A stretch of 64,000 bases of DNA from Candidatus Gastranaerophilales bacterium. GTDB taxonomy: Bacteria; Cyanobacteriota; Vampirovibrionia; Gastranaerophilales; Gastranaerophilaceae. Every line of letters starts with the position of its first letter. Position 1 is the stretch's first letter. Where the stretch lies: the NCBI GenBank assembly GCA_944324845.1, contig CALUXX010000006.1, positions 1 to 64,000 of the forward strand, written 5' to 3'. This document shows positions 17,216 to 18,333 of the stretch, piece by piece. The notes beneath the pieces are model-generated. The model searched no databases and was not told where the DNA came from. It worked only from the letters and a program-made list of their open reading frames with translations. The translations under genes were made by a program, and so were the position numbers.

Positions 17216-17818
17216 CTACTTAGAATAATATTCAATTACAAGTTGTTCTTTTATTTCAGGATCTAATTCTTCTCTTTCTGGAATTCTATCGAATGTTATT
17301 TTTAATGCTTCTTTATCGATTGTCATCCATGCTGGTGCACATGCCATATCAATCATGCCAATTACATCATTTAAGTATTTTGAACTCTTTGTCTTGATTG
17401 TAATTACATCGCCAGCTTTTACTAAGTATGAAGGAATATCTACCTTCTTACCGTTTACAAGTACGTGACCGTGGTTAACTATTTGTCTTGTTTGTTTACG
17501 AGTTATACCAAATCCTGCTCTGAATAAAATGTTATCTAATCTTGCTTCAAGTAATTGTAACAAAATTGTACCGGTAACACCTTTTCTTCTTGCTGCTTCG
17601 TTATAGTATCTTACGAATTGTTTTTCACTTACCAAATATGTGAATCTGATCTTTTGTTTTTCTGCTAAGTGAATTGCATATTCAGAAAGTTTCTTTCTTA
17701 CTGCACCATGTTGTCCTGATGAAGTTTGTCTCATTGATGATGTTAACTTTCTGTTTGATAAGTCTTTAACCTTTTTGTTTCTGAATAATTTATTGGTTGG
17801 TCCTGTATATCTTGACAT
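17216..17818 (-). CDS. rpsD: 30S ribosomal protein S4
   Basis: Primary 16S rRNA-binding protein, 200 residues. It begins MSRYTGPTNKLFRNKKVKDL, and the S4 RNA-binding domain has RLDNILFRAGFG and RQIVNHGHVLVNGKKVDIPSY. There is no zinc-binding Cys cluster at the N-terminus, so it is the C-minus type. S4 commonly represses its own synthesis through an mRNA structure. A strongly folded leader lies directly upstream (17844-17936), consistent with such control. Confidence 0.97.
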   Translation of the reverse strand: MSRYTGPTNKLFRNKKVKDLSNRKLTSSMRQTSSGQHGAVRKKLSEYAIHLAEKQKIRFTYLVSEKQFVRYYNEAARRKGVTGTILLQLLEARLDNILFRAGFGITRKQTRQIVNHGHVLVNGKKVDIPSYLVKAGDVITIKTKSSKYLNDVIGMIDMACAPAWMTIDKEALKITFDRIPEREELDPEIKEQLVIEYYSK

Positions 17819-17843
17819 TGTTTATTTTTCTCCTTTTTCTTGT

Positions 17844-17936
17844 GCGGGGCATCTATGGTTTGCGTATGGACTATTTACGCAAGCCCCCGCGATTTTTACT
17901 AACTTCTTCCTTTTGTCAGAGCTTACGACATCTGAC
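17844..17936 (-). promoter_or_regulatory. structured leader upstream of rpsD, candidate S4 autoregulatory element
   Basis: In the 128-nt gap between rpsK and rpsD the minus strand forms two elements. The first is a stem GTCAGA/TCTGAC (17931-17936 with 17915-17920). The second is a compound hairpin with outer stem GCGGGGGC/GCCCCGC (17883-17890 with 17844-17850, one bulge) and inner perfect stem TTGCGTA/TACGCAA (17876-17882 with 17860-17866) around a 9-nt loop. GC content is far above the surroundings. The rpsD ribosome site follows about 15 nt later. No T-run follows, so it is not a plain terminator. S4 binding is inferred from the family habit. Confidence 0.55.
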
Positions 17937-17946
17937 TTACGTAAAA

Positions 17947-18333
17947 TTATACTCTACGTTTTTTAGGAGGACGGCATCCGTTGTGTGGAATAGGTGTTAC
18001 ATCTTTTATTAATGTAATTTCTAATCCTGCAGCTTGGATTGCTCTGATTGCAGTTTCTCTTCCTGAACCAGGTCCTTTAATATGAACTTCTACTTTCTTC
18101 ATTCCTTGATCGATTGATTTCTTTGCAACTAATTCTGCTGCTGATTGTGCTGCGAATGGAGTACCTTTTCTTGCACCCTTGAATCCTGAAGCACCTGCTG
18201 TTGCCCAAGCAATAGCATTACCTTGTGTATCTGTAGAAGTTACTATTGTATTATTGAAAGTTGATTGTATGTGTACAACTCCCTGTAATACATTTTTCTT
18301 TTCTTTTTTCTTTGTCTTTTGTGGTCTTGCCAT
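17947..18333 (-). CDS. rpsK: 30S ribosomal protein S11
   Basis: 128 residues with the S11 motifs [13 protein letters not shown] and [17 protein letters not shown] and the C-terminal [16 protein letters not shown]. Spaced 80 nt from rpsM. The unusually long gap downstream holds the rpsD leader. Confidence 0.97.

Follow-up and report, generated by a model that had tools for sequence, protein, structure and literature searches.

A covarying RNA element ahead of rpsD in one Gastranaerophilales family, a probable leader for ribosomal protein S4

Introduction

The Bacillus rpsD leader for ribosomal protein S4 was reportedly described by Grundy and Henkin. Autoregulation of S4 through its own mRNA is established in both E. 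coli and Bacillus (PMC10931766; PMC7247131). The E. coli protein entraps the 30S subunit on its mRNA, and the Bacillus protein represses rpsD through a leader that is described as free of a pseudoknot (PMC10931766). Four S4 leaders were proposed in 2020, from Bacteroidia, Clostridia, Flavobacteria, and Fusobacteriales (PMC7247131), those of Bacteroidia and Flavobacteria being placed before rpsD-rpoA-rplQ (Eckert and Weinberg 2020, PMC7247131). Nowhere in its main text does that paper use the word Cyanobacteria.

Here we describe an RNA element between rpsK and rpsD in a 64,000-nucleotide stretch of DNA (the window) from a Candidatus Gastranaerophilales bacterium, where the initial annotation had pointed to a compound hairpin as a candidate S4 autoregulation site. 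No report of the element turned up among the open-licence papers listed for Gastranaerophilales or Melainabacteria leaders or structured RNA and for rpsD leaders since 2019. The element matched none of 4227 Rfam 15 families, whether at the gathering score or at a weak E-value; the Rfam 15 search gave just three hits of snoRNA type, all attributable to chance and all on the opposite strand, away from the element. Membership in Alpha_RBS (RF00140) was considered and rejected, there being no match in this one genome, while the controls in E. coli and Caulobacter gave the expected signal.

Results

Architecture of the element

The list of open reading frames with their translations places the operon on the minus strand, and from those translations we take its genes to be rpsM, rpsK, rpsD, rpoA, rplQ, truA, rplM, and rpsI. 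The rpsD product is 74-98% identical to its orthologues in other genomes of the same family with long matches. The 128-nt gap between rpsK and rpsD (17819-17946) holds a 47-nt element (Table 1) that reads, 5' to 3' on the minus strand, GCGGGG-GC-UUGCGUA-AAUAGUCCA-UACGCAA-AC-CAUAGAUG-CCCCGC. The two helices singled out in the initial annotation, a nested outer stem GCGGGGGC/GCCCCGC and a perfect 7-bp inner stem UUGCGUA/UACGCAA, are both present on this strand at 17844-17890. Covariance model R1 scores the element at 69.8 bits (E 2.1e-13), and this is its sole match at E 0.1 across the 1.96-Mb genome. Among relatives the element measures 32-48 nt and lies between rpsK and rpsD; changes on both sides are seen in four of the six P1 pairs and in six of the seven P2 pairs. 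Of 113 distinct copies, 87 have exactly CAUAGAUG as the 3' bulge, which is likely the recognition core; the others have near variants, one of them with a 1-nt insertion.

Table 1. Features of the rpsK-rpsD region in the window, in the order of transcription
Feature	Positions	Strand	Basis or support
rpsK (S11), adjoining upstream gene	17947-18333	-	ORF; stop at 17947
Separate 6-bp stem GUCAGA/UCUGAC, outside the element	17915-17936	-	segment z -1.01; sequences differ in relatives
Whole conserved element, 47 nt (nt 1 = 17890)	17844-17890	-	covariance model R1
Outer stem P1, 5' strand GCGGGG, nt 1-6	17885-17890	-	98.3% of cells paired
P1-P2 junction G7 C8, with C8 opposite A32 (C-A mismatch)	17883-17884	-	copy comparison
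Inner stem P2, 5' strand UUGCGUA, nt 9-15	17876-17882	-	90.9% of cells paired
Apical loop GUCC, nt 20-23 (GCC in other copies)	17868-17871	-	copy comparison
Inner stem P2, 3' strand UACGCAA, nt 25-31	17860-17866	-	P2 pairing in alignment
Conserved 3' bulge, 8 nt, nt 34-41	17850-17857	-	copy comparison
Outer stem P1, 3' strand CCCCGC, nt 42-47	17844-17849	-	pairing figures as for P1 5' strand
rpsD Shine-Dalgarno AAGGAG	17830-17835	-	sequence; 8 nt past P1
rpsD (S4)	17216-17818	-	ORF; start codon 17818-17816

The separate 6-bp stem that had been counted with the same leader is present in the window, lies outside the element, and is not conserved. A promoter scan gave 9 sites against 7.8 in shuffles, i.e., no excess. 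Other gaps contain a long repeat-like stretch, GCCGGTGTG...CAATCTTTGATTG; the window lacks the core of this stretch. Lineage-specific foldbacks are often seen upstream of the element (L030, L035, L038, L042, L043, L044, L060, and others), and 19 of 31 upstream gap segments fold with z < -2. The frequency of such foldbacks, together with the intercistronic place of the element just before the Shine-Dalgarno sequence, would suit a structure that needs no ligand, whether for processing, for stability, or as a translation-standby hairpin. A plain hairpin, however, has no need of conserved unpaired letters, whereas here the stems vary in sequence and the bulge and the loop (GCC/GUCC) hardly change; we regard such a ligand-free role as improbable.

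Folding energy and covariation

The folding energy of the 47-nt element is unremarkable (z -1.95, with 8 of 200 shuffles equally good), as is that of a 142-nt stretch (z -1.51). A plus-strand fold with z -3.43 was set aside as lying on the wrong strand for a minus-strand operon. Modest energy scores of this kind are what an intrinsic terminator or a chance inverted repeat might give, but no T-run follows the element, the terminator scan lists no terminator in the gap, and chance is excluded by covariation and conservation; we give hardly any credence to either origin. It is covariation and the presence of one copy per matching genome, rather than energy, that set the element beyond chance.

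Compensatory change in relatives had been proposed as the check on which the stems depended, and it was clearly observed: both stems covary in each of two alignments. The first, A1, consists of 40 of 55 diverse sequences hand-picked out of 115 distinct ones and aligned with MAFFT; 94.4% of its cells are paired, 8 of 13 pairs show changes on both sides, and its covariation score is 0.399 versus 0.140 in shuffled data. The second, A2, comprises 76 loci with near-repeats removed by hand (67 distinct rows) and was aligned to the covariance model, so that it is fitted to the structure of the model. In A2 the paired cells amount to 94.5%, compared with 34.6-52.0% for slid registers, 10 of 13 pairs are changed on both sides, the covariation score is 0.338 (0.119 shuffled), and on each of five measures all 500 shuffles fall short of the value observed. 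RNAalifold, run unaided on A2, returns 12 pairs that form the same two stems. A1 is the more independent covariation set, though hand-picked, and A2 the model-fitted one. The two stacked stems, P1 and P2, are thus held by compensatory evolution.

Position relative to rpsD

Scanning named genome contigs with a sequence pattern gave at least 113 loci with the motif. Among the matches listed, 112 of 113 motifs sit in the rpsK-rpsD gap on the rpsD strand, 19-33 nt 5' of the rpsD start and 11-244 nt past rpsK (112 loci). Together with the lack of any Rfam match, this supports the initial suggestion of an independent regulatory structure for rpsD. The other match (L089), with another phylum label and no rpsD in its locus, was taken as chance and dropped from later counts. 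The scan fixed GGGGCTTG and AAACCATAGATGCCC, so its loci (L073-L185, 76 distinct elements) cannot vary there, and the regular expressions also limit what counts as an element. In all 69 loci found with the covariance model (L206-L274), rpsD was located by tblastn, and none of them is among the 22 loci in which the 310 nt upstream of rpsD hold no element. The 229 element loci, among which some genomes are recorded more than once, correspond to 113 distinct elements.

P1 is separated from the rpsD ATG by 25 nt in the window and by 16-30 nt in 226 of the 229 loci (distance rows off by two, through a script misreading). This narrow spacing, combined with the variable distance from rpsK, points to control of rpsD translation initiation. 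In position and covariation, the element presents itself as a conserved structured RNA directly upstream of a ribosomal protein gene, as a ribosomal leader does.

In three loci (L035, L041, and L060), rpsD is preceded by a foldback repeat of about 100 nt, GGATTTTG...CAAAATCC, which pushes the element upstream and leaves P1 121-122 nt away from the ATG; folding of this stretch could bring the element and the start close again. The rpsD start is ATG in 229 of 229 element loci. In 17 of the 22 loci lacking the element (L049-L059, L061-L071), rpsD starts with TTG, with GGAG shortly upstream, and several of the element-less loci have a possible small hairpin over the rpsD start; this is perhaps another route to limiting S4.

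Distribution and origin

An S4 match was obtained in 89 of the 98 genomes searched, the window's own included, and 70 rpsK-rpsD gaps were read from the S4 matches: the element is present in 48, in gaps of 76-304 nt, and absent from 22. Within this family of gut bacteria, 189 of the 383 genomes match the covariance model, with one copy each, and these fall in 16 of 41 genera. Of the 45 same-genus genomes listed, 41 match, the other four being three without an S4 match and one with an S4 fragment. Every match in the class sample (76 of 194 genomes) and in the phylum sample (90 of 292) falls in the same Gastranaerophilales family, with none outside it in either sample. Among the group-naming records listed, most carriers bear the name Candidatus Gastranaerophilales, Melainabacteria, or Cyanobacteria bacterium; a minority are labelled otherwise (e.g., Acinetobacter, Brachyspira, Fusobacterium, and Muribaculaceae), and we take these to be mislabelled bins. 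Many further records say simply bacterium. A FastTree phylogeny of S4 and S11 (99 tips, given without support values, L240 being left out as too short) unites the 77 carriers in one clade with the 22 non-carriers outside it, and indicates one gain and no observed loss.

The apical loop and its coupling to the junction

Of 113 distinct copies, 109 have an apical loop with GCC or GUCC, each time together with the C8-A32 mismatch; the loop-type counts are off by two, the loop pattern having caught an inner GTCC in two rows. In the four copies without this loop, positions 8 and 32 form a Watson-Crick pair in every case, C-G in three and U-A in one. Fisher's test on this coupling gives p 1.6e-7 (with relatedness not corrected for), and the coupling persists when the pattern-scan loci are removed (69 and 4 of 73 distinct copies, p 9e-7). 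The loop-less copies, L036, L263, L264, and L265, belong to different genera (g1, g67, g7, and g57) and lie apart in the tree, and therefore probably represent four separate events. All four retain the bulge, as CGCAGAUG, CAUAGAUG (twice), and CAUAGGUG. Elsewhere, two script-misread rows excepted, the distance from C8 to the loop G is 8-11 nt and that from A32 to the loop C is 8-10 nt.

We propose that C8 is the partner of the loop G. With less confidence, we infer a contact between the junction GGC and the loop GCC, which would form a small pseudoknot resembling the one in 16S helix 18 (505-507/524-526) and would account for both the loop/mismatch coupling and the steady loop-to-junction distances. 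In helix 18, the tip (524-526) pairs with the base (505-507), and RNAs unable to form this pseudoknot are described as giving non-native S4 complexes (PMC7356742). The 16S rRNA of the same-genus genome L192 has GGC and GCC at the helix 18 positions; L192 served as the reference since the window's own assembly has no 16S match. That 1.96-Mb assembly (G000) lacks a 16S match despite a completeness rating of 99%. Against the pseudoknot, it would have merely two to three pairs, competing with the last P1 pair, and almost no linker; GGC and GCC are invariant outside the four loop-less copies and so unable to covary; and a three-letter identity with 16S is weak evidence. We therefore put forward only tentatively, and with more doubt than confidence, the idea that the leader imitates the helix 18 pseudoknot and that four lineages, upon losing the loop, independently swapped the tertiary pair for a nested C8-G32 or U8-A32 pair, keeping the same S4-binding core by two folds.

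As for linear likeness to 16S rRNA, ungapped alignment of the conserved blocks yields no match that beats those to shuffled 16S (fractions of shuffles as good, 0.125-0.84). A resemblance of UAGUCC...GUAAAC...GAUG to the 16S central domain was likewise dropped: it fails against shuffles and is absent from GCC-type copies.

Discussion

A probable S4 leader

The element is most probably a lineage-specific, cis-acting S4 ribosomal leader that represses rpsD translation within the rpsM-rpsK-rpsD-rpoA-rplQ operon; its position is what points to S4 binding and repression. Free S4, when in excess over 16S rRNA, would bind the P1-bulge-P2 core, and the bound protein would then block or trap the 30S subunit at the rpsD start, so that less S4 is made and, perhaps, less of the products of the coupled genes downstream. 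The element leaves the Shine-Dalgarno sequence and the start codon uncovered, so that any such repression must be steric or by entrapment. Two more direct modes were considered and rejected. Sequestration of the Shine-Dalgarno sequence by the loop would be open to GUCC copies alone, which could form three pairs with GGA, and GCC copies cannot do so; pairing of the loop GCC with the GGC of an AUGGCN start is at odds with the many copies that start AUGUCA.

The same cis-regulatory RNA of rpsD might instead answer to another ligand: S11, the RNA polymerase alpha subunit, L17, or a metabolite. S4 is linked to the element by position alone, and the conserved bulge and loop could fit another protein or a small molecule. 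Metabolite riboswitches are usually found before several unlike genes, however, which counts against a metabolite here, where each matching genome has one copy, before rpsD; among the operon products, moreover, S4 is the primary rRNA binder. We consider a ligand other than S4 unlikely.

Comparison with known S4 leaders

If an S4 leader, the element is most readily set beside three described systems. With the published S4 leaders of Bacteroidia and Flavobacteria it shares a hairpin RNA before rpsD, rpoA, and rplQ, S4 as the likely ligand, and a narrow lineage range; it differs in coming from another phylum, a comparison of setting rather than letter by letter with the published motifs. The Bacillus rpsD leader also lies directly upstream of rpsD, where translational autorepression is known, but there rpsD is a separate gene and the region is described as without a pseudoknot (PMC10931766). 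In addition, a conserved GUAA imitates rRNA in the Bacillus leader (PMC7247131), whereas the GUAA of Firmicutes S4 leaders is not conserved here: it falls in none of the invariant columns, the window having GCAA and a minority of rows GUAA. Like the E. coli alpha-operon pseudoknot (Alpha_RBS, RF00140), the element is an mRNA structure of an S4 operon with a possible pseudoknot, but the E. coli structure covers the rpsM ribosome-binding site (PMC10931766).

The likeness to 16S helix 18 lies in an outer stem, a GGC at its base, a hairpin, and a GCC at the hairpin tip. The leader differs in its 8-nt 3' bulge, which helix 18 lacks, in a smaller apical loop, and in that its GGC adjoins the inner stem without a linker. 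Should this likeness hold, it would link leader recognition to the rRNA pseudoknot needed for native S4 assembly complexes. The motif is small and well defined, its origin falls on a single branch, and four variants occurring in nature hint at the needs of the ligand. The S4 leaders of other lineages, known or proposed, have largely unrelated folds; one more of separate origin, in a branch of the Cyanobacteriota that does not photosynthesize, would add another case of convergent RNA regulation.
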